Assembly: GCF_000576575.1 (NCBI RefSeq)
Contig: NZ_AWQS01000023.1
Location: forward strand, 1-32,772
Length of the DNA: 32,772 bases
Direction: 5' to 3'
Source: Intrasporangium chromatireducens Q5-1
GTDB lineage: Bacteria > Actinomycetota > Actinomycetes > Actinomycetales > Dermatophilaceae
The notes under the pieces were generated by a model. It made no database searches. It was not told the DNA's origin and was given only the letters and a program-made list of their open reading frames with translations. Of this stretch, positions 7,081-31,087 are shown one piece after another (within the stretch, counting starts at the first letter, position 1; every line of letters starts with the position of its first letter). Made by a program: the position numbers and the translations under genes.

Positions 7081-7911
7081 CTAAAGGGACGGGGAACTGC
7101 GCTTTTCCGCGTGCAGCCACTCCAGCACCCTCTCGACCGACTGGACGGTGTCGACGCATGCCGGCAGGGGCGGTCGCCGAACGACGACGACCCGCGCGCC
7201 GCAGTCACGCGCGGCTCTCAGTTTGGGCTCGGTGAGGGCGCCACCGGAATCCTTCGTCAGGACCACGTCGATGCTGCGCGACTTCATCAGAGCCCGTTCA
7301 GCGGCATACGGGAAGGGACCGCGGGCGCAGATGATCTCCCACGAGGCGGGGATCGGGATCTCGGGTGGGTCCACGACCCGCGCCACGACGGGACGGTCGG
7401 TCCAGCACGTGAAGGTTCGCAGGCCTTGACGGCCGGTGGTGAGCAAGGGTCTTCGACCGGCTGACTCGGCAGCCCTTCTGGCGCCCTCGAGGTCGTCGGC
7501 CCAGATGAACTCTTTGGCGAGCGGATGTGCTTCCCAACCGGGGCGCTGCAGGCGGAGAAGGGGCACACCGGTGCGCCCGGAGGCGGCGAGGGCATTCGCG
7601 GTGATCTGCTCGGCGAACGGGTGCGTCGCGTCGATGATGTGCGTCACGCCGTCCGCCGTGACGTGCCGGACCAGTCCGTCGACGCCGCCGAACCCGCCGA
7701 CGCGCACGTCGCCGACCGGGAGGGTGGGCCGCTGGACCCGGCCGGCGAGGCTCGAGACGAAACGCAGGCCGAGGGCGTCGAGCGCGGCGGCCAGGGCCCT
7801 TGCCTCCGCAGTGCCGCCGAGAATGAGCACGCGTGCTGGGGCCGGGGCCTGGCCCGCCGACCGCGCGGAGGCGACCTGTCCAAGCGGGGAGCCTGGCCCG
7901 TCGACGGTCAT
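7081..7911 (-). CDS. cobK: CobK, precorrin-6A reductase
   Basis: A 276-residue NADPH-dependent reductase that converts precorrin-6A to precorrin-6B during corrin ring synthesis in the cytosol. A Rossmann-like start (VLILGGTAEARAL, about residues 28-40) is followed by family blocks THIIDATHPFAEQI, LRLQRPGW, TTGRQGL and VLTKDSGG near the end, all typical of CobK/CbiJ. The length is close to the usual 250, with an added N-terminal 25-residue tail. The ATG at 7911 overlaps the stop of the preceding gene cobD by four bases (ATGA), which fixes it. It is the last gene of the leftward operon headed by the B12 riboswitch at 14972-15078. Confidence 0.93.
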   Translation of the reverse strand: MTVDGPGSPLGQVASARSAGQAPAPARVLILGGTAEARALAAALDALGLRFVSSLAGRVQRPTLPVGDVRVGGFGGVDGLVRHVTADGVTHIIDATHPFAEQITANALAASGRTGVPLLRLQRPGWEAHPLAKEFIWADDLEGARRAAESAGRRPLLTTGRQGLRTFTCWTDRPVVARVVDPPEIPIPASWEIICARGPFPYAAERALMKSRSIDVVLTKDSGGALTEPKLRAARDCGARVVVVRRPPLPACVDTVQSVERVLEWLHAEKRSSPSL

Positions 7912-8861
7912 GACATGACCCTTCGGCGGGCGGAGAGCGCGTGGGCCGCGCCGACGACGACACCGGCCGAGCCGGCCTGAACCCACCAGGCAAGCCGCCG
8001 TCCGGGCTCGACATCGGCCGGCGTGGCGGGCCGTCCTGCGCCCAGCGTTCCCCGGTCCTCCAGGACGCCGCCGTAGTCGTTCACGCCACCCAGCACGACG
8101 CCGAGAGCACCCGCGAACGACGCCTCGACGACGCCGCCGTTCGGGCTGGGATGGTGCCGGGCATCGCGACGCACCGCTGCCACAGCCTCAGCGGCGGACC
8201 CGGTGCCGCCCGCCAAGGGAGCCGCCGCAGCAGCCAGCAGCGCTGCCACCCGCGCCGGAACCCAGTTCAGCAGGTCATCGAGCCGCGCTGCCGCCCAACC
8301 GAACTCGCGATAACGCTCGCTCCGGTGCCCGACCATCGCGTCCAAGGTGTTGACCACTCGATAGGCGACGAGACCGGGCGTTCCCAACACCGCGCCCCAC
8401 AGCAGTGGGGCGACGACGGCATCGGAGGTGTTCTCGGCGAGGGACTCGAGGCACGCGCGAGCCACCCCGACCTCGTCGAGGGAGGCCGTGCTCCGCCCGA
8501 CGATGCGGCCGACCTGGGCACGTGCGCCGGGAAGGTCAGCGGCCCGCAGTCGCTCCTCGACCGCCTCGGCCTCCCGCAAGAGGGAACGACCACCGAGGAC
8601 CGTCCAGGTCGACGCAGCTACCACGAGTGTGTGCCCGATGCCGTGGCGCCGAGTCGCGCGTTCCAGGGCGGCCACCGCACCCGTCAACGGGAGGGCGAGC
8701 AGCGCGAGGTGAGCGACCCCGTGACCGCGGTGAGCGGCATACATCCTCGTCTCCAGCGTGCGCGCGAGCGAGCCGAAGCCCGCGACCGGATGCCATCGCG
8801 CAGGGTCGCCGAGCACCTGGTCGGCAAGCCAGCCGAGCGCGAGCCCCGCGGCGCGGCTCAT
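7908..8861 (-). CDS. cobD: CobD/CbiB, adenosylcobinamide-phosphate synthase
   Basis: A 317-residue integral membrane enzyme that joins the aminopropanol arm (or its phosphate) to adenosylcobyric acid. The family blocks are all present: GDPARWHPV near the N terminus, the LESLAENTSDAVVAPLLW block, the NTLDAMVGH block, DDLLNWVPAR, and HHPSPNGGVVEASFAGAL. Several hydrophobic helices fit a multi-span protein. Both ends overlap neighbours by four bases, with cobA upstream and cobK downstream, so translation is coupled. The usual partner CobC is present as a domain of the protein encoded two genes upstream. Confidence 0.95.
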   Translation of the reverse strand: MSRAAGLALGWLADQVLGDPARWHPVAGFGSLARTLETRMYAAHRGHGVAHLALLALPLTGAVAALERATRRHGIGHTLVVAASTWTVLGGRSLLREAEAVEERLRAADLPGARAQVGRIVGRSTASLDEVGVARACLESLAENTSDAVVAPLLWGAVLGTPGLVAYRVVNTLDAMVGHRSERYREFGWAAARLDDLLNWVPARVAALLAAAAAPLAGGTGSAAEAVAAVRRDARHHPSPNGGVVEASFAGALGVVLGGVNDYGGVLEDRGTLGAGRPATPADVEPGRRLAWWVQAGSAGVVVGAAHALSARRRVMS

Positions 8862-12744: not shown

Positions 12745-14903
12745 CAGGCCACGTCCTCTCGCCTCGCTGCTGTGTGGGACCGCACGGCATCGACGAGCAT
12801 CCCGGCCGCGAGGTCGTGCATCGGGACGTGCTCCGCCTCAAGCTCCCCGGCGAGGCGTTCGGCAAGACCCAGGCGCAGTCGGCTGGCCTCGCAGTCGATC
12901 ACGACGCTGCTGACGCCATCCGCACGTACGAGACGCGCCGCCTCCATCGCGCGCAGGAGTGGATCCGGCCCGCTCGTGGCCCGGCCGTCGGTGACGACGA
13001 CGAGCAGTGGCCGGCGCGCAGGGTCGCGCAGCCTGGCACGGCGGATCGTCACCAGCGCGGTCAGGAGGCCCTCGGCCAGCGGGGTCCGGCCGCCGTGGGC
13101 CAGGTCGGCAAGCCGACGAGCCGCGACGTCCACCGATCCAGTTGGTGGGAGGGCGAGCTCGGCTGCCTGTCCCCGGAAGGTGACCAGCCCGATCTGGTCG
13201 CGCCGCTGGTAGGCGTCGAGCAGCAGGGACAGCACGGCAGTCTTGACGACCTCCATCCGACGCCGGGCGGCCATCGAGCCGGACGCGTCGACGCAGAGCA
13301 GGACCAGGTTGGCCTCCCGTCCCCGCGCCACCGCACGCCGGACGTCGCCGACGACGATGTCGAGCCGTCCGCCCGACGGGCCTCGCCGCCGGGCGGCCGC
13401 TCGGATGGTGGCAGGGAGGTGGACGGCTCCGACCCGGTCGCCTGTGGACCGGACGGTCCGTCCACGGGTCGTCAGCGCCTGCGACCGTCGTCCCGCCTGT
13501 CCGGCACCGACCCCCTTGGCCTTGAGCAGCCGTGCCCGGTAGGGCCGGCCCGCCGCGGCGGTGCCGGTCGCAGATGCCGTATGCCGCTCAGCGGGCTCCT
13601 CCTCGTCGGCCTCCGTCGACTGGGGTTCCGTCGCAGCCGCCGGTGGCCTCGGGCGGCTCGGGGCGTCGGGCGCCGCCTCGTGCGCCCCGGCACCAGACGG
13701 TCGGGCCGGCTCCGCCCCGTCGCGGCGGGCCCCTTGGTCGTGTCCGGGCATCGGGTCGTCCGGGTGGGGCCGGTCCGAGTCCCTCGGGTCCGAGTCCCTC
13801 GGGTCCGAGTCGGGCCGCTCCGGGTCCGTCGCGTCCGTCGGGTCCGGCTCGTCGTCCGGGCCGTCGAGCAGCTCGTCGAGCAGCGCCTCGTCCAGGCCCG
13901 GAGTGTCGAAGGGCGAGCGGCGGCGCCGGTGCGGCAGCGACAGGCGCGCCGCCGCCCGCACATCGGCCTTGGTCACGACGCGGCGACCTGACCACGCCGC
14001 GTGGGCCACAGCGGTGCGGGCCGTCACGAGGTCGGCGCGCAGCCCCTCGACCCCGAAACCGGCGCAGACGCGGGCGATCACGGCCAGCATGCCGTCCGGG
14101 AGGTCGACGTCCGCGACGGCAGCTCGGGCGGCGAGGATCCGGCTGCGCAGCAACTGCTGCTCAGCGGCGAACCGTCCGGCAAAGTAGGGAGGGTCGGCGT
14201 CGAACGCGAGGCGGCGACGGACGATCTCGGTCCGGGTCTGCACGTCCTTGGGGGCCGTGACCTCGACGGCCAGGCCGAAGCGGTCGAGCAGCTGCGGCCG
14301 CAGCTCACCCTCCTCGGGGTTCATCGTGCCGACGAGGACGATCCGGGCCGCGTGGGTGACCGAGATGCCATCGCGCTCGACGGTGTTGCGGCCCATGGCG
14401 GCCGCGTCGAGGAGGAGGTCGACGAGGTGGTCGTGAAGGAGATTGACCTCGTCGACGTAGAGGATGCCCCGGTTGGCGCTCGCGAGCAGGCCCGGCTCGT
14501 AGGTCGCGACGCCCCGGCTCAGCGCTGCAGTGAGGTCCAGGGAGCCGATGACCCGGTCCTCGGTTGCCCCGACGGGCAGCTCGACGAGACGGGCCGCCCG
14601 CAGTTCCTCCGGCTGGTGCGGCCCATGCGGTCCGTCGGGACAGCGCGCATCCGGGGCAGCCGGCGCGCAGCCGAAGCGGCACCCGACGACGACCGCCTGG
14701 TCCGGGAGCACGGCCGCCAGTGCCCGCACGGCGGTCGACTTCGCAGTGCCCTTTTCGCCGCGGACGAGCACGCCCCCGATCTGGGGCGAGACGGCGGTCA
14801 GCAGCAGGGCAAGGGTGAGGTCGTCCGCGCCGACGAGCGCGGAGAACGGATAGATCGCTTGTCCCACGATGGGATCGGCGAGAGATGCTGACGACGCCGC
14901 CAT
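12744..14903 (-). CDS. Fused ChlI-ChlD-type chelatase AAA+/VWA subunit, probable CobN partner
   Basis: A 719-residue protein. Residues about 10-330 are a BchI/ChlI-like AAA+ module, with Walker A GEKGTAKST (49-57), a Cys-rich loop (about 75-88) and Walker B ILYVDEVNLL (147-156). Residues 345-450 are an Asp/Pro/Arg/Ala-rich linker with an Asp-Pro-Arg-Asp-Ser repeat. Residues about 455-719 are a VWA domain with the MIDAS motif DASGS (539-543). Such ChlI/ChlD proteins drive metal insertion in magnesium chelatase. Beside CobN and with no CobS/CobT present, it is inferred to power cobalt insertion here. The frame stays open upstream to 15077, but that stretch is the B12 riboswitch. The ATG at 14903 has AGGAGG just upstream and gives a normal N terminus. 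It is the first gene of the leftward operon. Confidence 0.9.
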   Translation of the reverse strand: MAASSASLADPIVGQAIYPFSALVGADDLTLALLLTAVSPQIGGVLVRGEKGTAKSTAVRALAAVLPDQAVVVGCRFGCAPAAPDARCPDGPHGPHQPEELRAARLVELPVGATEDRVIGSLDLTAALSRGVATYEPGLLASANRGILYVDEVNLLHDHLVDLLLDAAAMGRNTVERDGISVTHAARIVLVGTMNPEEGELRPQLLDRFGLAVEVTAPKDVQTRTEIVRRRLAFDADPPYFAGRFAAEQQLLRSRILAARAAVADVDLPDGMLAVIARVCAGFGVEGLRADLVTARTAVAHAAWSGRRVVTKADVRAAARLSLPHRRRRSPFDTPGLDEALLDELLDGPDDEPDPTDATDPERPDSDPRDSDPRDSDRPHPDDPMPGHDQGARRDGAEPARPSGAGAHEAAPDAPSRPRPPAAATEPQSTEADEEEPAERHTASATGTAAAGRPYRARLLKAKGVGAGQAGRRSQALTTRGRTVRSTGDRVGAVHLPATIRAAARRRGPSGGRLDIVVGDVRRAVARGREANLVLLCVDASGSMAARRRMEVVKTAVLSLLLDAYQRRDQIGLVTFRGQAAELALPPTGSVDVAARRLADLAHGGRTPLAEGLLTALVTIRRARLRDPARRPLLVVVTDGRATSGPDPLLRAMEAARLVRADGVSSVVIDCEASRLRLGLAERLAGELEAEHVPMHDLAAGMLVDAVRSHTAARREDVA

Positions 14904-14930: not shown

Positions 14931-14971
14931 CTGGTTGACCGGGACCACGCCGGACGCCGTGGCCAGCGGCT

Positions 14972-15078
14972 GCAGATGCCCTGGCTCCCCTCCTGCACCG
15001 GCAGGTGGGTCACAGTGGCGGGACCGCTCCGGACTCTCACCGGATTCCTCTCCAGTCGCCGCGACGCAGTCTGCCACG
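14972..15078 (-). ncRNA. Cobalamin (B12) riboswitch 1, upstream of chlID-cobO-cobB/C-cobA-cobD-cobK
   Basis: Read leftward, bases 15046-15008 carry the B12-box core: CCGGTGAGAGTCCGG, then the GCGGTCCCGCCACTGTGA block. The GGAGCCAGG element follows at 14988-14980. The closing P1 stem is GCAGA/TCTGC (15074-15070 with 14976-14972). Binding of adenosylcobalamin or a related cobamide to such RNAs lowers expression of the downstream genes. The element ends about 70 bases before the chlID start. Confidence 0.93.
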
Positions 15079-15138
15079 TCACGTTCGGTCCTGCGGCGCG
15101 GGGTCCGAGCCTCGAGAACGCCCGACCCGGCAGCGCAC

Positions 15139-17145: not shown

Positions 17146-17177
17146 CCGGGCGCTGTGCCATACTCGCGCCACCACGC

Positions 17178-17270
17178 CATGTCAGGGCACGGAACCCGGT
17201 GTGAATCCGGGACGGTCGCGCCACTGTGACCATCGCTTCGGCGACGGGAGTCAGACACGTCCCTGACACA
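17178..17270 (+). ncRNA. Cobalamin (B12) riboswitch 2, upstream of cbiMNQO
   Basis: Core block GGAACCCGGTGTGAATCCGG followed by GACGGTCGCGCCACTGTGACC (17191-17231), then the GGGAGTCAGACAC element (17246-17258). The closing P1 stem is GTCAGGG/CCCTGAC (17181-17187 with 17261-17267). It ends about 40 bases before the cbiM start. It is expected to reduce cobalt uptake when cobalamin is plentiful. CATACT at 17159-17164 is a possible -10 element. Confidence 0.93.
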
Positions 17271-17309
17271 GCCTCACGAGGACGCGCCATCCCAGGAGTG
17301 TGAGCCGAA

Positions 17310-19952: not shown

Positions 19953-21509
19953 TCAGCGCACGAAGCGGGGCGTCCAGACCTGCCCGTGCTCGGTGACGCG
20001 AGTCCCCGACGCGCCAATGATGACAAGGCACTTCATGTCGATGACTGCCGGGTTGAACGCGCCGAGCGTGGTCACTGTCAAGGACTCCTCGGCCCGGCCG
20101 ACGTCACGGCCGACGACGACGACGGCCTCTGCCCCCCGGACGTCGAGGAGCACCCGGTGGGCAGCCGCGATCTGCTCGGTCCGGCTGCGCGATGCCGGGT
20201 TGTAGAGCGCGACGACGAGGTCCGCGGCGGCGACTGCCCGGAGACGGGCCTCGATGACCTCCCAGGGCTTGAGCCGGTCGGAGAGCGACAGGACCGCGAA
20301 GTCGCCACCGAGCGGGGCGCCCGCCCGCGCCGCGACGGCCTGCGCGGCGGTCAGTCCCGGGAGCACCCGGATCGGCACGTCGCCGTAACCTCCTGTCTCG
20401 GCCGCCTCGAACACGGCGGCCGCCATGCCGAAGACCCCCGCGTCACCGCCCGAGACGACCGCGACCCGGCCTCCCTTGCGGGCCAGCTCGAGGGCGTCAC
20501 GGGCCCGGTCGACCTCGACCGTGTTCCCCGAGGCGTGCCGCGCCAGACCCTCCCGTTGGGGTACCCGCGCGACGTACGGCGCGTAGCCGACGACATGGTC
20601 GACCTCGGCCAACAGCCCCACGACTTCCGGCGTGAGCCACCGGTCGGGACCCGGACCCAGACCCACAACGACGACCTCACCCTGAGGGGCAACCGACCCA
20701 GCCGTATGCCGCTCAGCCGGCTCAGCGGCATACGGCTCGGTCGCCCGCCCTGCCGAGTCAGCGCGCAGGTCGCTGCCGGGGACGACGATCATCGACATGT
20801 AGGGGACGGTGAGCGGGTCGACGTCGCTGACCGGGATGACGCGTTGCTCACGGGTGCTGGCACGCTCGACGTAGCGGGCCTCGTCCAGGCGTCCGGCCTG
20901 CCGAAGGGCCTCCCGGACGCCCTCGAAGGTCCGGCCGAGCTTCATCACCACTGCGGCCTCCGTGTCGGCGAGGCGCCTCGCGAGCTCCGGCACCGGGAGG
21001 GTCCCGGGCAGGATCGTGAGCGTGTCCTCGTGCCGGCACAGTCCGGTCCCGGCCGCCGCGCTCGCCGCGCTGACCGACGTGACGCCGGGCACGACCTCGG
21101 TGTCGTAGCGGTCACCGAGCCGGTCGTGGAGGTACATGTAGGTGCCGTAGAAGAGCGGGTCACCCTCGGCCAGGACGACCACGTTGCGACCCGAGTCGAG
21201 ATGGGCAGCAAGGCGATTCGCCGACTCGTCGTAGAAGTCGGACATCAGCCCGTGGTAGCCGAGCGGATGGTCGGTGACTCCCGTCGTGACCGGGTAGACG
21301 AGGTGCTCCTCGATCACGTCCGGGCCGAAGTGGTCGGCCGCGATCCGTCGGGCGATCGAGTCCCCCCGGGGGCCGCTGTGGTAGGCCACGACATCGGCCT
21401 CCCGGATGAGGCGGGCGGCCTTGATCGTCACCAGCTCAGGGTCGCCCGGCCCGACACCGACCCCCTTGAGCCAGCCGCGTCCGGGCGCCCCGCCTGCCTC
21501 CACCGTCAC
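19953..21509 (-). CDS. cobIJ: CobIJ fusion: precorrin-2 C20- and precorrin-3B C17-methyltransferase
   Basis: A 518-residue protein of two related SAM-dependent methyltransferases. Residues about 12-245 are CobI: GVGVGPGDPELVT, VVLAEGDPLFYGT and the VPGVTSVSAASAA block. Residues about 278-518 are CobJ: VVGLGPGPDRWLTPEV, VVSGGDAGVFGMA and VVALYNPASRSR. CobI methylates C20 of precorrin-2; CobJ methylates C17 and contracts the ring of precorrin-3B. CobI-CobJ fusions occur in other actinobacteria. The 30-residue linker (246-277) contains the inverted DNA repeat at 20700-20737, giving PYAAEPAERHTA. The GTG at 21509 overlaps the cobH stop (GTGA), with AGGAGG upstream. Last gene of cobG-cobH-cobIJ. 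Confidence 0.94.
   Translation of the reverse strand: MTVEAGGAPGRGWLKGVGVGPGDPELVTIKAARLIREADVVAYHSGPRGDSIARRIAADHFGPDVIEEHLVYPVTTGVTDHPLGYHGLMSDFYDESANRLAAHLDSGRNVVVLAEGDPLFYGTYMYLHDRLGDRYDTEVVPGVTSVSAASAAAGTGLCRHEDTLTILPGTLPVPELARRLADTEAAVVMKLGRTFEGVREALRQAGRLDEARYVERASTREQRVIPVSDVDPLTVPYMSMIVVPGSDLRADSAGRATEPYAAEPAERHTAGSVAPQGEVVVVGLGPGPDRWLTPEVVGLLAEVDHVVGYAPYVARVPQREGLARHASGNTVEVDRARDALELARKGGRVAVVSGGDAGVFGMAAAVFEAAETGGYGDVPIRVLPGLTAAQAVAARAGAPLGGDFAVLSLSDRLKPWEVIEARLRAVAAADLVVALYNPASRSRTEQIAAAHRVLLDVRGAEAVVVVGRDVGRAEESLTVTTLGAFNPAVIDMKCLVIIGASGTRVTEHGQVWTPRFVR
20700..20737. repeat. 38-base inverted repeat inside the CobI-CobJ linker
   Basis: Perfect 14-base arms AGCCGTATGCCGCT (20700-20713) and AGCGGCATACGGCT (20724-20737) enclose the 8-base palindrome AGCCGGCT (20715-20722), with one unpaired C on each side. 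Each arm contains the dispersed word GTATGCCGC. It encodes the linker peptide PYAAEPAERHTA on the leftward gene. Transcripts of either strand could form a very stable hairpin. Confidence 0.85.
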
Positions 21510-23298: not shown

Positions 23299-23347
23299 CC
23301 GTGGATCGTAGGTGAAGGGCCGTCGGCAGCCACAGTCGCTGCCCCGC

Positions 23348-23353
23348 TAGGGT
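23348..23353 (+). promoter_or_regulatory. Possible -10 element for the cobN leader (TAGGGT)
   Basis: TAGGGT fits TANNNT and lies directly before the first paired bases of riboswitch 3. The same CTAGGGT string precedes cobL. The spacing to the aptamer is short, so the start point would be within its first bases. A weak call. Confidence 0.3.
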
Positions 23354-23456
23354 GGCGGCAGCGTCATCGACCAGGAACCCGGTGTGAGTCCGGGACGGTC
23401 CCGCCACTGTGAGCGCGCCACGCGTGGCCGCGTGAGTCAGGAACTGCCGGCGGCGT
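23351..23456 (+). ncRNA. Cobalamin (B12) riboswitch 3, upstream of cobN
   Basis: Core GGAACCCGGTGTGAGTCCGG followed by GACGGTCCCGCCACTGTGAG (23374-23413), then the GTGAGTCAGGAACTGCC element (23432-23448). The closing stem is GGCAG/CTGCC (23357-23361 with 23444-23448). The core is nearly identical to that of riboswitch 2. It is followed by a hairpin next to the cobN ribosome-binding site. Confidence 0.94.
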
Positions 23457-23473
23457 GTCACATCCGACCGACC

Positions 23474-23505: not shown

Positions 23506-26500
23506 ATGAGCGACGTGTCCACGCGCATCCTCCTGCTCAGCACGAGCGACACGGACCTGCTCGGTGCCCGAGCCAGCGGGGCGGCATACCGCTGGGCCAA
23601 CCCCACCCGCGTGACGGACGCCGAACTGCGAGCCGAGCTCGAGCGGTGCGACCTGGTGGTCTTCCGCTACCTGGGCTCCGTCCAGTCACTGCCCCCGGCC
23701 TTCGCGGCCGCCCGTGACAGCGGACGGCCATTCGTCGTCCTCGGCGGTGAGCAGACGCCCGACGCCTCCCTGATGGAGCTCTCGTCGGTCCCGCTCGGCG
23801 TGGCGGCCGAGGCGCACCGCTACCTCGCGCAGGGCGGCGCGACGAACCTGCGCAACCTGCACGCCTTCCTCGCTGACACCGTCCTGCTGAGCGGCGACGT
23901 CTTCGACCCGCCCGCAGACCAGCCGACATGGGGCCTGCTGGACGACGGTAGGCCGCGGATGGCCGTTGCCGACCACCGACGCGCCCTCGTCGCGATCCTC
24001 TACTACCGGGCACACCATCTGGCTGGCAACGTGGCACACGTCCGCCAGCTCTCCGCCGCGGTCGAGGCGGCCGGCGGCGTCGCCACGCCGATCTTCGTCA
24101 CCAGTTTGCGGGACGCACCGTCCGACCTCCTCGAGCACCTGCAGGACTACGACGTGCTGGTCACCACCGTCCTGGCAGCCGGTGGCACGCGACCCGCCGC
24201 CGCGGCCGCGGGCGAGGACGACGACTCATGGGACGTCGAGGCGCTGGCCGAGCTCGACGTCCCGATCATCCAGGGGCTCACCCTCACTTGGGACCGATCC
24301 ACGTGGCAGTCGAGCGACGACGGGATGAGTCCGCTCGACGTCACCAGTCAGGTCGCGGTCCCGGAGTTCGACGGGCGAATCATCGGAACAGTGTTCTCCT
24401 TCAAGGAGATCGACGCCGATGGCCTACCACAGTACGTCCCTGATGTCGAGCGGTGCCGACGCCTGGCCGAGCTCGCCGTCGCCCATGGGCGCCTGCGCCA
24501 CACCCCGCCGGAGGAGCGGCGGATCGCCATCGTCCTGTCCGCCTACCCCACGAAGCACGCGCGGATCGGCAACGCGGTCGGCCTGGACACGCCGGTCTCC
24601 GTCATCCGGCTCCTGCGGGCGCTGCGAACGGCCGGCTACGACCTCGGCGAGCCGGGGAAGATCCCGGGGACGGGCGAGGTCGAGCCCGTCGACGGGGAGT
24701 CGGTCGACACGACCGCCGGCAACGCACTGATCCACGCCATCATCGAGGCAGGCGGGCAGGACGAGGACTGGCTGACCCAGGAGCAGCTGTCGGGGCAGCC
24801 CGTGCGCATCCCCGCCGGGAGGTATCGCGAGTTCTTCGCGACGCTGCCCGCCGAGCTGCGCGAGGCGGTCACCGAGCACTGGGGGGACGCGCCCGGCGAG
24901 CTCTTCGTGGACCGGCAGCGCGATCCGAACGGTGAGATCGTCGCGGCAGCACTGCGTGCCGGCAACGTCGTCATCCTCGTCCAGCCGCCGCGCGGCTTCG
25001 GTGCCAACCCGATCGCCATCTACCACGACCCCGACCTGCCGCCGACGCACCACTACCTCGCCGTCTACGACTGGCTGGCACATCAGTTCGGTGCCCACGC
25101 CATCGTCCACATGGGCAAACATGGCAACCTCGAGTGGCTGCCCGGCAAGAACCTGGCCCTGTCCGCGTCCTGCGGGCCGGACGCCACGATCGGCGGCGTC
25201 CCGCTCGTCTACCCGTTCCTCGTCAACGACCCGGGCGAGGGCAGCCAGGCCAAACGGCGCGCCCACGCCACGATCGTCGACCACCTCGTCCCACCGATGG
25301 CCCGCGCAGAGTCCTACGGCGACATCGCTCGCCTCGAGCAGCTCCTCGACGAGTACGGCAACGTCTCCGCCATGGACCCGGCCAAGGCGCCGGCCCTGCG
25401 GGCGGAGATCTGGTCGCTCCTGCGGGCGGCGGAGCTGCACCGAGATCTCGGTCTCGAAGACGATGCCTCGGTCGAGGACGCCGCCGAGTTCGACCTCCTG
25501 GTGCAGCACGTCGACGGGTGGCTCTGCGAGATCAAGGACGTCCAGATCCGGGACGGCCTGCACGTCCTGGGCGAGGTGCCCTCGGGGCAGGCCCTCGTCG
25601 ACCTCGTCCTCGCCATCCTGAGGGCCCGCCAGGTGTTCGCCGGCACCGTGGGGGCGGTCCCCGGGCTCCGCACCGCCCTCGGCCTCGCCGAGGACGAGAC
25701 CGACCGCGGCACAGTAGACCGCGCCGAGGCCCAGGCCGCGGCGCTGGTCTCGGCGCTGGCGGACACGGGCTGGGACGCCACGGCAGTGCCGGACGTCGTC
25801 GGCGCGCTGCTCGGCTCCCGGGCGGAGGCCGACACGCGAGATGCCGTATGCCGCTCACTGACCTTCGCGTGCGAGCAGGTCGTCCCGCGCGTCCTCGCGA
25901 CCTCAGGGGAGATCGATGCGATCCTCCACGCACTCGACGGCGGCTACGTCCCGGCCGGACCGAGCGGCTCACCGCTTCGCGGGCTCGTCAACGTGCTCCC
26001 CACCGGCCGCAACTTCTACACCGTCGACCCCAAGGCGGTGCCATCCCGGCTCGCGTGGGAGACCGGCCAGGCCATGGCCGACTCCCTCCTAACTCGCCAC
26101 CACCAGGACACGGGGGAGTGGCCCCGAAGCGTCGGCCTGTCGGTGTGGGGCACGTCCGCAATGCGCACCTCCGGCGACGATGTGGCAGAGGTCCTGGCCC
26201 TGCTCGGCGTGCGCCCTGTCTGGGACGAGATGTCCCGCCGCGTGGTCGGGCTCCAACCCATTGCCCTTGCCGAGCTCGGACGTCCCCGGATCGACGTCAC
26301 GGTGCGGATCTCCGGGTTCTTCCGTGACGCGTTCCCCCACGTCATCGACCTGCTCGACGACGCTGTCCGCCTCGTGGCCGGCCTGGACGAGGCACCTGAG
26401 GACAACTTCGTCAGGGCGCACGTCCACCGCGACCTCCACCAGCACGGGGACGAACGGCGTGCCACGATGCGGATCTTCGGCTCCAAGCCGGGCTCCTACG

Positions 26501-27183
26501 GCGCCGGCATCCTCCCGCTCGTGGAGGCCGGGAACTGGCGGGACGACAAGGACCTGGCCGAGGTCTACGCGACCTGGGGCGGCTTCGCCTACGGACGACA
26601 GCTGAGCGGCATACCGGCTCGTCCCGAGATGGAGCGCATCTACGCGCGGATCGACGTCGCAGCCAAAAACATCGACACCCGCGAGCACGACATCGCCGAC
26701 TCCGACGACTACTTCCAGTACCACGGCGGGATGGTGGCGACGGTGCGCGCCCTGACGGGGCGGGCGCCGCGGGCCTACGTGGGTGACTCGACCACGCCGG
26801 AGTCCGTGCGCACCCGCACACTGACTGAGGAGACCGCCCGCGTCTTCCGGGCACGGGTGGTCAACCCGCGCTGGATCTCCGGGATGCGCCGGCACGGCTA
26901 CAAGGGGGCCTTCGAGCTCGCCGCGACGGTCGACTACCTGTTCGGGCTCGACGCGACGGCCGGGGTCGTCGAGGACTGGATGTACGAGAACCTCGCCAGA
27001 ACCTACGTGCTCGACAAGGAGAACCAGGACTTCCTTCGGCATGCCAACCCGTGGGCGCTGCACGGGATGGTCGAGCGGCTCCACGAGGCCGTCGACCGTG
27101 GCCTCTGGGCGGAGCCGGACCTCGACCTGCTCGCGCGGCTGCAGGCGGTCTACCTGGAGGTCGAGGGGGACCTCGAGGAGTGA
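23506..27183 (+). CDS. cobN: CobN, aerobic cobaltochelatase large subunit
   Basis: A 1225-residue protein that binds hydrogenobyrinic acid a,c-diamide and inserts Co2+, using ATP hydrolysed by partner subunits. It is homologous to the ChlH/BchH subunit of magnesium chelatase. Family blocks include HMGKHGNLEWLPGK (about residue 536), YPFLVNDPGEGSQAKRRAH, LPTGRNFYTVDP, the YGAGILPLVE segment and a YQYHGGM-like FQYHGGMVATV near 1070. The length matches typical CobN. CobS and CobT are absent; the ChlI-ChlD fusion at 12744-14903 is the likely AAA+ partner. The ATG has GAGGAG upstream and follows riboswitch 3. It is a single-gene unit converging on cobF with two bases between stops. Confidence 0.96.
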   Translation: MSDVSTRILLLSTSDTDLLGARASGAAYRWANPTRVTDAELRAELERCDLVVFRYLGSVQSLPPAFAAARDSGRPFVVLGGEQTPDASLMELSSVPLGVAAEAHRYLAQGGATNLRNLHAFLADTVLLSGDVFDPPADQPTWGLLDDGRPRMAVADHRRALVAILYYRAHHLAGNVAHVRQLSAAVEAAGGVATPIFVTSLRDAPSDLLEHLQDYDVLVTTVLAAGGTRPAAAAAGEDDDSWDVEALAELDVPIIQGLTLTWDRSTWQSSDDGMSPLDVTSQVAVPEFDGRIIGTVFSFKEIDADGLPQYVPDVERCRRLAELAVAHGRLRHTPPEERRIAIVLSAYPTKHARIGNAVGLDTPVSVIRLLRALRTAGYDLGEPGKIPGTGEVEPVDGESVDTTAGNALIHAIIEAGGQDEDWLTQEQLSGQPVRIPAGRYREFFATLPAELREAVTEHWGDAPGELFVDRQRDPNGEIVAAALRAGNVVILVQPPRGFGANPIAIYHDPDLPPTHHYLAVYDWLAHQFGAHAIVHMGKHGNLEWLPGKNLALSASCGPDATIGGVPLVYPFLVNDPGEGSQAKRRAHATIVDHLVPPMARAESYGDIARLEQLLDEYGNVSAMDPAKAPALRAEIWSLLRAAELHRDLGLEDDASVEDAAEFDLLVQHVDGWLCEIKDVQIRDGLHVLGEVPSGQALVDLVLAILRARQVFAGTVGAVPGLRTALGLAEDETDRGTVDRAEAQAAALVSALADTGWDATAVPDVVGALLGSRAEADTRDAVCRSLTFACEQVVPRVLATSGEIDAILHALDGGYVPAGPSGSPLRGLVNVLPTGRNFYTVDPKAVPSRLAWETGQAMADSLLTRHHQDTGEWPRSVGLSVWGTSAMRTSGDDVAEVLALLGVRPVWDEMSRRVVGLQPIALAELGRPRIDVTVRISGFFRDAFPHVIDLLDDAVRLVAGLDEAPEDNFVRAHVHRDLHQHGDERRATMRIFGSKPGSYGAGILPLVEAGNWRDDKDLAEVYATWGGFAYGRQLSGIPARPEMERIYARIDVAAKNIDTREHDIADSDDYFQYHGGMVATVRALTGRAPRAYVGDSTTPESVRTRTLTEETARVFRARVVNPRWISGMRRHGYKGAFELAATVDYLFGLDATAGVVEDWMYENLARTYVLDKENQDFLRHANPWALHGMVERLHEAVDRGLWAEPDLDLLARLQAVYLEVEGDLEE

Positions 27184-27185
27184 GG

Positions 27186-27959
27186 TCAGGCGGGCCGCAG
27201 CAGGTAGGTGTCCATGACCCAGCCGTCCCGGGCGCGGATCTCTGCACGGAGCCGGCGGACCTCGTCGATGACCTCGGCGAGCCGGCCTGACACCAGGGCC
27301 TCGTCGGGAGTGCCGAGCTGGGCGCCCCAGTAGAGTCGCAGGTCGGGATGCGTCTCGGCCAGCCCGGCGCACTGCAGGTGTCCGTCGAGCATGACGACGA
27401 CGTCGCCCAGCTCGGGACGGTATTCCTCGAGGAGCCGTCGCCCGGTCGTGATGTGGATCGGTGCTCCGATCCGGTTCAGGGGTATGCCGTGCCGGGCGGC
27501 GAGCAGCTGCGGGGCGCTGATGCCGGGCAGGACGTCGACGGCGACGCCGAAGCGGGGCCGCAGCGCGTCGACGATCCGGATCGTGGAGTCGTAGAACGCC
27601 GGGTCGCCCCAGACGAGGAAGCCGACGGTCTGCTCATGGGGTTGCAGGGTGGCCAGGACCTCGGCGTAGGCGTCGACGCGAGCGGCGTGCCAGTCCCGCA
27701 CCCCTCGCCCGTATGCCGCTGAGTCCCGCTCGCGGTCGGGTCCCCGTTCCGGATCGACGACCTCGATGACGCGGTAGCGGTGCGACCAGGGGATGAGTTC
27801 GGCGCAGATCCGCTGCCGCGCGCGGACGAGGTCCGCCTTGGCCTCGCCCTTGTCGGCGACGAGAAAGACGTCGACCGTGGCGAGGGCCTCGACGGCGTCC
27901 CTCGTGAGGTGGCCGGGGTCCCCCATGCCGATGCCGATGACGCGGATCCGCTTGATCAC
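27186..27959 (-). CDS. cobF: CobF, precorrin-6A synthase (deacetylating)
   Basis: A 257-residue SAM-dependent methyltransferase that methylates C1 of precorrin-5 with loss of the C1 acetyl group as acetate. This step is specific to the aerobic pathway. It has the N-terminal RVIGIGMGDPGHLT block, FLVADKGEAKADL, FLVWGDPAFYDST and the LPGISAPQLLAARHGIPLN region. The start is a GTG at 27959 that overlaps the cobQ stop by four bases (GTGA), placing the SAM-binding strand at the N terminus as expected. Second gene of the cobQ-cobF unit. Confidence 0.94.
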   Translation of the reverse strand: MIKRIRVIGIGMGDPGHLTRDAVEALATVDVFLVADKGEAKADLVRARQRICAELIPWSHRYRVIEVVDPERGPDRERDSAAYGRGVRDWHAARVDAYAEVLATLQPHEQTVGFLVWGDPAFYDSTIRIVDALRPRFGVAVDVLPGISAPQLLAARHGIPLNRIGAPIHITTGRRLLEEYRPELGDVVVMLDGHLQCAGLAETHPDLRLYWGAQLGTPDEALVSGRLAEVIDEVRRLRAEIRARDGWVMDTYLLRPA

Positions 27960-29467
27960 GGCGTCATCTGGGGGAGGCCGGCTCGCGTCAGCGCGAGGAG
28001 GGCGTCGACGTCGAGGTGCTCCTCGAGGGCGTCGGCGAGGACCTCGAGCATGTGTTCTCGCCTGGCTGCGAAGCCGGCGGCGTCGGGGTCGGGTCGCCAC
28101 CGTGAGCCGGCCGCCTCGGCGACCCGGCTCAGCCAGGCCCGCCGGAAGGCGTCGTTCTCAAACGCGCCGTGCCACATCGTCCCCCAGACGGCGCGGACCT
28201 GCCAGCCGTCGAGAAACGGCTCGGCCGGTCGTGCGCCGTCGAGGGCGGGGTCTCCGCTGTCGATCGGGTGGGCGATGCCGTGGTGGATCTCGTAGGCCTC
28301 GACCCGGTGCCCTTGCCAGGTGCCGACCGGTCGGGCCAGGACCTTGTCGGCGCCGAACTCGACTCGGATCGGCAGCAGCCCGAGGCCTGGAACGACGCCG
28401 ACCTGCCCCTCGACGTCGTCCTCGATCTGCTGGCCGAGCATCTGGTAGCCACCACAGATGCCCAGGACCGGTCTGCCGGCTGCCGCACGGCGTGTGATCA
28501 TCTCTCCCAGCCCACGCTCGTGCAGCCAGGCGAGATCGATCGTGGTGGAACGGGTCCCGGGCAGTACGACCAGGTCTGCCGCCTCGACCAGAGCCGGATC
28601 GACCGTGACCAGCACGTCGACGCCGGGTTCGGCGGCGAGGGCGTCGACGTCCGTCGCGTTGGAGATGCGCGGGAGCCGGACCACCGCCACCGTGAGCCGG
28701 TCGCCCGCTCCGGCCGGCCTTGCTGCGGCTGCTCGCCACTCACCCGTGGCGAGGGTGTCCTCGCTGTCCAGCCAGACCTCGAGCAGCCACGGGATGACGC
28801 CCACGAACGGCACACCGGTCCGCCTGCTGATCTCCGCGAGGCCGGGCTCCAGCACCGAGACATCGCCACGGAACTTGTTGATGACAAAGGCCTTCAGGAG
28901 CGCTCGATCCTCGTCGGACAACAGGGCCCACGTGCCGTAGAGCGAGGCGAGGATGCCGCCCCGGTCGATGTCGCCGACGACGACCACCGGCAGGTCGAAG
29001 CGCCGCGCCAGCCCCAGGTTGACGAAGTCGCCCTGCCGCAGGTTGATCTCGGCAGGTGACCCCGCGCCCTCACACACGACGAGGTCGTACTCGTCGGCGA
29101 GCTCCTCGTATGCCGCGAAAGCGGCGTCTGCGAGCAGAGCCCGCCCAGCGGCATACTGGCCCGCCTCGAGCACCCCGGCGGGGCGGCCACGCACGACGAT
29201 GAACGACCGGCGGTCGCTCCCCGGCTTGAGCAGGACCGGGTTCATCGCCGTCGTGGCGACGACCCCCGCGGCCTGGGCCTGCAGGTACTGCGCGCGGCCG
29301 ATCTCGCCGCCGTCGAGACAGACCATCGAGTTGTTCGACATGTTCTGCGCCTTGAACGGCGCAACGCGAAGACCACGGCGGGCCAGCACCCGACAGAGCC
29401 CCGCCGTGATGACGGACTTACCGGCGTCCGAGGACGTGCCGGCCACGAGGATCCCGGATGCGCTCAC
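27956..29467 (-). CDS. cobQ: CobQ/CbiP, adenosylcobyric acid synthase
   Basis: A 503-residue glutamine-dependent amidase that amidates the b, d, e and g side chains of adenosylcobyrinic acid a,c-diamide. The N-terminal dethiobiotin-synthetase-like domain has LVAGTSSDAGKS (7-18), FKAQNMSNN and GEIGRAQ. The C-terminal amidotransferase domain has GICGGYQMLG with the (often non-standard) class-I nucleophile Cys338. The start is GTG at 29467, placing the ATP loop at residue 10; the frame stays open to 29626, but that part overlaps an IS481 scrap on the other strand and looks random. First gene of a leftward two-gene unit; no riboswitch is visible upstream. Confidence 0.94.
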   Translation of the reverse strand: MSASGILVAGTSSDAGKSVITAGLCRVLARRGLRVAPFKAQNMSNNSMVCLDGGEIGRAQYLQAQAAGVVATTAMNPVLLKPGSDRRSFIVVRGRPAGVLEAGQYAAGRALLADAAFAAYEELADEYDLVVCEGAGSPAEINLRQGDFVNLGLARRFDLPVVVVGDIDRGGILASLYGTWALLSDEDRALLKAFVINKFRGDVSVLEPGLAEISRRTGVPFVGVIPWLLEVWLDSEDTLATGEWRAAAARPAGAGDRLTVAVVRLPRISNATDVDALAAEPGVDVLVTVDPALVEAADLVVLPGTRSTTIDLAWLHERGLGEMITRRAAAGRPVLGICGGYQMLGQQIEDDVEGQVGVVPGLGLLPIRVEFGADKVLARPVGTWQGHRVEAYEIHHGIAHPIDSGDPALDGARPAEPFLDGWQVRAVWGTMWHGAFENDAFRRAWLSRVAEAAGSRWRPDPDAAGFAARREHMLEVLADALEEHLDVDALLALTRAGLPQMTP

Positions 29468-31036: not shown

Positions 31037-31083
31037 AGTGTGACGAAAAGAGGCCCTGACCTGCGGAAACGCCGGTCAGGGCC
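31026..31083 (+). repeat. Right copy of 31-kb-spaced direct repeat
   Basis: Matches 28-83 from ACCTGCCACC through the terminator hairpin, with a few substitutions and a two-base length difference in the spacer. Here it is joined to a recognisable tRNA T-arm, so this copy is closer to the ancestral arrangement. Confidence 0.65.
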
Positions 31084-31087
31084 TCTC
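31049..31087 (+). terminator. Rho-independent-like terminator after the tRNA-Tyr fragment
   Basis: A perfect 13-base stem, AGAGGCCCTGACC (31049-31061) with GGTCAGGGCCTCT (31074-31086), and a 12-base loop, followed by CTTG. It lies 13 bases after the tRNA 3' end, where a tRNA terminator would be expected. Confidence 0.75.

Follow-up and report, generated by a model that had tools for sequence, protein, structure and literature searches.

An inverted pair of a dispersed, uptake-sequence-like word in the CobI-CobJ linker of Intrasporangium chromatireducens Q5-1

In Intrasporangium chromatireducens Q5-1, the gene that fuses the cobalamin enzymes CobI and CobJ carries, between its two enzyme domains, a near-perfect palindrome built from a word that is dispersed in the genome. 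This locus raises the question of how such a palindrome came to encode part of a protein. The earlier note on this DNA had proposed that a small palindromic element was inserted, or duplicated head to head, stayed in frame and became the linker. Our analysis, which rests on sequence comparison, instead makes an unusual coding site of a word resembling the DNA uptake sequences (DUS) of other bacteria the best reading of the CobIJ pair.

The palindrome between CobI and CobJ

Direct reading of the window (the whole stretch of 32,772 nucleotides analysed here, from contig C23 of the host genome, G000) places the 38-base palindrome at 20700-20737. Its arms are complementary at 14/14 positions, as the earlier note had seen, and the two bases beside the centre form a C:C mismatch (Table 1). 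The stem is longer than had been noticed then, since single-strand folding of the pair with its flanks gave a stem of 14 + 5 bp, with z = -7.6 and -7.5 for the two strands. The pair encodes residues 258-270 of CobIJ, EPYAAEPAERHTA. NCBIfam models above cut-off end CobI at residue 244-246, and CobJ starts at residue 279 by a model above cut-off and at 276 by another CobJ model, so that the pair falls squarely within the linker; its description as an in-frame pair in a tolerant linker between two enzyme domains was borne out. Two other features were observed in the window. Its cobalamin gene cluster holds three cobalamin riboswitches (RF00174), at 14954-15086 (-), 17167-17280 (+) and 23331-23465 (+), and a 37-base hairpin-like sequence at 48-84 occurs again at 31048-31084, 31 kb apart and with one difference.

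Table 1. Coordinates of the palindrome, its gene and other copies of the word (positions in the window unless a contig is named)
Feature	Position	Strand	Description
Left arm, AGCCGTATGCCGCT	20700-20713	-	word AGCGGCATACGG on the - strand at 20702-20713; followed by C
Palindrome centre, AGCCGGCT	20715-20722		direct sequence reading; followed by C
Right arm, AGCGGCATACGGCT	20724-20737	+	word AGCGGCATACGG on the + strand at 20724-20735
Extended stem	20694-20743		one mismatch outside the arms, then 5 more base pairs
cobIJ fusion gene	19953-21509	-	precorrin-2 C20-methyltransferase + precorrin-3B C17-methyltransferase, 518 aa
Single word AGCGGCATACGG	7300-7311	+	coding
Single 10-mer AGCGGCATAC	8733-8742	+	coding
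Single word AGCGGCATACGG	13577-13588	-	coding
Single word AGCGGCATACGG	25844-25855	-	coding
Single 10-mer AGCGGCATAC	26605-26614	+	coding
Single word AGCGGCATACGG	27709-27720	-	coding
Single 10-mer AGCGGCATAC	29147-29156	+	coding
Protein with C-terminal extension	G016 C1:1197993-1199531		
Protein with C-terminal extension	G000 C22:960-2168		

Judged by CobIJ, the named organisms closest to the host are Intrasporangium calvum PheN6 (82%) and two Humibacillus (78 and 80%). Among the loci of 80 named relatives, the 10-mer form of the word, AGCGGCATAC, was found only in I. calvum PheN6, whose cobIJ has the same palindrome with flanks that are less self-complementary. The linker region has 61 residues both in the host and in I. 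calvum, 64 in the two Humibacillus and 61 in Janibacter melonis, these last three being without the word, and 54 in Allobranchiibius. In close relatives that lack the word the linker is three residues longer. CobIJ can thus be accounted for with no insertion, and the claim that an insertion created the linker is not supported. The result that the earlier note had named as contrary to its reading, a linker conserved at protein level in distant relatives, was not found: the linker peptide is not conserved there. A second genome, G016, shows how the pair behaves at the DNA level. Of codons 259-269, 10/11 are the same in G000 and G016, adjoining codons mostly differ, and over the whole gene 62% of third positions in shared residues are identical. 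The flanks of the pair have different sequence in the two genomes, each being self-complementary. It is possible that some copies of the word arose by insertion, and that replacement or local inverted copying occurred at CobIJ.

The word in the genome and in the family

The arm does belong to a dispersed word, as had been claimed: the 12-mer AGCGGCATACGG has 264 exact copies in the G000 genome, 6 of them in the window, vs 6 in the genome for the reversed pattern. The 10-mer AGCGGCATAC reaches 1107 copies in G000 (reversed control, 12), 738 in its congener G001, 955 in G016, 1031 in G119 and 887 in G022, with controls of 7-23 copies across these five genomes. For closer analysis we sampled 1.13 Mb of G000 and positions 0-1.2 Mb of G016, the latter genome being one contig of 4,024,382 bp. 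In the G016 sample GCGGCATA is the most over-represented 8-mer (349 copies vs 11.6 expected), and the aligned 12-mers extend to GGGAGCSAGCYCAGCGGCATACGGCA. Another dispersed word, GAAAGAGCAGTT(C) / (G)AACTGCTCTTTC, is present in the same sample (contig C1), with 54 copies of its 12-mer. Loose mismatch counting within the window alone is weak evidence: allowing up to three mismatches to the arm word gives 54 places vs 41 expected, barely above chance and reached by 2/100 shuffles, while the 9-mer GGCATACGG with at most one mismatch gives 18 vs 7.0 and is reached by 0/100.

Counts of the core CGGCATAC cover 186 genomes of the host family: 106 have at least 400 copies, 15 have 120-399 and 65, the word-poor genomes, have fewer than 120. 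The maximum is 4724, in the 4.2-Mb genome of G008, where AGCGGCATAC makes up 101 of these copies; in G000 and G016 most core copies are AGCGGCATAC. This extension is typical only of G000, G001, G016, G119, G022 and G034. Samples of 20-40 kb from other genera have the core in the lead or among the top k-mers, with mixed extensions (ACGGCATAC, CGCGGCATA, CCGGCATAC, CGGCATACC). The mixture occurs even inside one genome and is less tidy than the dialects of Neisseria, which PMC3630211 describes as DUS dialects arranged round a core. Also, word-poor species stand inside word-rich genera: G101 has 37 core copies vs 1251-1660 in four congeners, G144 has 19 vs 3681 and 1062, and G165 has 50, the rest of its genus having at least 394. 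Across this one actinobacterial family the core is shared, the lineage of G000 has a distinct extension of it, and single species have lost it.

In genes called with a purpose-written script rather than a standard gene finder, words lie inside genes in 143/314 cases (G016) and 119/266 (G000), in both orientations and with a roughly flat distribution of positions. Relative to the reading frame, antisense copies clearly exceed sense ones in G000 (74 vs 45) and slightly in G016 (75 vs 68); such an orientation bias is reported for all known uptake sequences (PMC2346458). The spacing of the words is random (CV 1.02). The two strands are nearly balanced, with 90 forward vs 84 reverse 12-mers in the 0-1.2 Mb of G016 and, by direct count, 28 and 30 copies in 400 kb. 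The location of gyrA at 13 kb in G016 suggests an origin near base 1, and the sampled 1.2 Mb is probably one replichore. A polar word for recombination or segregation, of the Chi or KOPS type, was rejected for want of strand skew in that sample, even if the density and conservation found here would suit a chromosome-maintenance word; a regulator binding site would not be expected inside genes as often as the word is. We consider this whole group of explanations highly improbable.

Pairs, conservation in place and acquired DNA

Most copies of the word are unpaired. An exact partner lies within 120 bases for 60/314 words in G016 and for 66/258 in G000, the latter counted over the words at least 150 bases from a contig end (258/266). 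Outward pairs of the form GTATGCCG-N0-30-CGGCATAC number 55 in the G000 genome against a control of 0. They are present in 115/186 genomes of the family and, among the 65 word-poor genomes, in one only (G222, one pair). The highest number in the family, 209, was observed in G044.

Inverted pairs within 80 bases number 29 in the 1.2 Mb of G016 and 32 in the 1.13 Mb of G000, and they concentrate behind genes: 22/29 and 25/32 (47/61 together) follow a stop codon by no more than 100 nt. The corresponding values are 76/118 and 46/79 for unpaired intergenic words and 26-27% for random intergenic places. A compact form, GTATGCCGCTGAGCCGGCTCAGCGGCATAC, is recurrent. Taken over 21 compact outward pairs, 86/126 flank positions are complementary vs 50 expected (0/10000 permutations), which points either to selection for the hairpin or to one arm having been copied from the other by template switching. 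A local inverted duplication is possible on these counts. In inward pairs the three innermost bases are not complementary (25/57, ~27 expected), which speaks against a uniform hairpin reading.

Only a few pairs are wholly coding (5 in G016, 2 in G000), and two of them are near called gene starts. In G016 one occupies residues 525-534 of an ABC-type ATPase, in mid-gene, and is followed by a weak C-terminal domain match (560-617). Two others form C-terminal tails past the last recognised domain: in two unrelated proteins (Table 1) the palindrome, translated in frame, extends the C-terminus after the last Pfam match, as YAAEPAQRHT... and YAAERAQRHT. Mapping the paired form against domains and gene ends, as had been suggested, showed that the mid-gene pairs (CobIJ and the ABC-type ATPase) keep outside recognised domains and that most pairs sit just after stop codons. 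This last position, together with the strength of the hairpins, would fit an explanation in which pairs are transcription terminators only and single words their decayed halves. However, genes contain almost half of the words, which occur there in both orientations and are conserved (24/40 coding words exact), and the CobIJ pair is in mid-gene; we therefore judge the terminator explanation improbable as a full account.

Conservation in place was assessed between G000 and G016 for the words spanned by an alignment in the sampled part of each genome, 216/266 words of G000 and 266/314 of G016 being left out for want of one. From G000 to G016, 27/50 aligned words are exact vs 8% of flanking 10-mers (mean identity 76%), and in the reverse direction 27/48 are exact vs 6%. 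Permuted words, as small controls with 19 and 21 spanned, are exact in 4/19 and 4/21 cases, and one-base variants of the word in 0/29. Next to words, 10-mers are conserved less often (6-8%) than next to permuted words (17-21%), in small numbers. At orthologous positions the word is far better conserved than the DNA around it. Among coding words, 24 were conserved, 13 substituted and 3 gapped from G000 to G016 (n=40), and 24, 8 and 8 in the opposite direction; among non-coding words, 3/10 and 3/8 were conserved.

These data bear on the idea that a small palindromic mobile element, of the Rickettsia palindromic element or REPIN type, was inserted in frame in CobIJ and became its linker. The word is dispersed, paired and in frame; the peptide motif YAAE.AQRHT ends two other proteins; and gaps occur in 3/16 and 8/16 of the differing coding words and in 6/7 and 1/5 of the differing non-coding ones. 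Against this stand the prevalence of unpaired copies, the fact that the closest word-free relatives have no shorter linkers, and the better conservation of the word than of its flanks. In our view such an element is very improbable as the source of the linker.

Additionally, we examined the four longest AGCGGCATAC-free stretches in the 0-1.2 Mb of G016, which measure 24-42 kb vs a mean spacing of 4.3 kb, have a GC content of 66-68% vs 71%, and contain 5, 8, 1 and 0 copies of the core CGGCATAC. Pfam scans of 30/90 called genes in these stretches (10/21, 10/31, 8/23 and 2/15, genes crossing a locus border left out) revealed at least one integrase in each and transposases in three, as well as a group II intron maturase and FtsK- and AAA_10-type ATPases. 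Not all of their genes are mobile: the second longest stretch starts with gyrA, and others hold ordinary enzymes and transporters. In this one genome, the longest sampled stretches that bear integrases and transposases lack the word. A word of any kind that accumulates slowly and is maintained should show this depletion and the conservation in place as well.

A candidate uptake sequence and its known counterparts

The comparisons above show that the genome-wide word exists and behaves like a DNA uptake sequence; on balance, and by a narrow margin, we favour a role for it in DNA uptake. In such a system the DNA receptor of the competence machinery would prefer word-bearing DNA; word-bearing alleles would be re-imported, and the word would build up where sequence change costs little. 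The CobI-CobJ linker, which exists with or without the word, may be such a low-cost place, and the pair in it is kept at the DNA level. ComEA and ComEC are present. In the host family ComEC was found in 180/186 genomes, ComEA in 179/186 (97 over cut-off) and DprA in 185/186, and of the 65 word-poor genomes 0 are without ComEC and 1 is without ComEA. These three genes were discarded as discriminators, being near universal in word-rich and word-poor genomes alike; because they are as common in the latter, the uptake function is inferred. Known DUS and USS bacteria use retractile type IV pili; PilT of such pili was over cut-off in 2/186 genomes of the host family, a rarity that counts against the uptake reading. 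Also against it are the random spacing, the slight orientation bias in G016 and the untidy extensions of the core. A Tad/Flp pilus as in Micrococcus luteus would be our guess for the uptake machinery.

The main rival to a role in uptake is a word of the HIP1 kind, whose abundance would be kept by a DNA methyltransferase or by biased mismatch repair with no link to uptake. Cyanobacterial HIP1 is comparable: it too is short and abundant, it is scarce or missing in some genomes, and it tracks methyltransferases (PMC4390886). The loss of the word within genera while the competence genes stay also fits a cause other than ComEC, ComEA and DprA. But HIP words are palindromic and CGGCATAC is not, and a HIP1-like origin leaves both the complementary flanks and the hairpin pairs that follow stop codons unexplained. 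We regard this rival as unlikely, though deserving serious consideration.

DUS and USS are known from Neisseriaceae and Pasteurellaceae. To our knowledge, uptake sequences have been described from these two Gram-negative families only. A literature search, from which subscription papers were mostly absent, did not turn up, among the matches listed, any account of such a sequence in Actinobacteria, and the term "uptake sequence" does not occur in the available part of the Micrococcus luteus Flp-pilus paper. A 2025 review treats Neisseria as an exception to unspecific uptake (PMC12236230). A wider proposal, which we would hold at barely above an even chance, is that the family has an actinobacterial, Gram-positive uptake sequence system, with lineage-specific core variants, independent of those of Neisseriaceae and Pasteurellaceae, lost in several species and able to shape linkers and gene ends. 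If true, this independent Gram-positive case, with several within-genus losses, would offer natural contrasts for finding the receptor, and the same contrasts would address whether selection or drive spreads such words. Even with a different cause, a word that is maintained family-wide at a density of about one per 1-4 kb and that marks both linkers and gene ends calls for an explanation.

The closest counterpart is the DUS of Neisseriaceae, which is, as stated in PMC2397512, conserved, located in permissive regions of the core genome, absent from recently acquired genes, and used in inverted pairs as terminators. The word described here shares with it a length of 10-12 bases, hundreds to thousands of copies on both strands, conservation in place, scarcity in acquired DNA, inverted pairs after genes and a core common to a family. 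It differs in its unrelated sequence, its actinobacterial family, the rarity of PilT and the mixed extensions in several genera. The USS of Pasteurellaceae is similar in general behaviour and density; its sequence is unrelated, and within genes it is biased toward gene ends (PMC2346458), unlike the roughly flat distribution found here. With cyanobacterial HIP1 the word has in common a very high abundance, short length and loss in some lineages, whereas HIP1 is a palindrome and the core CGGCATAC / GTATGCCG is non-palindromic. Finally, REP/REPIN and Rickettsia palindromic elements are also dispersed, have paired forms and lie in some cases in frame in genes; unlike them, the unit here is mostly a single, non-self-pairing word that is better conserved than its flanks.
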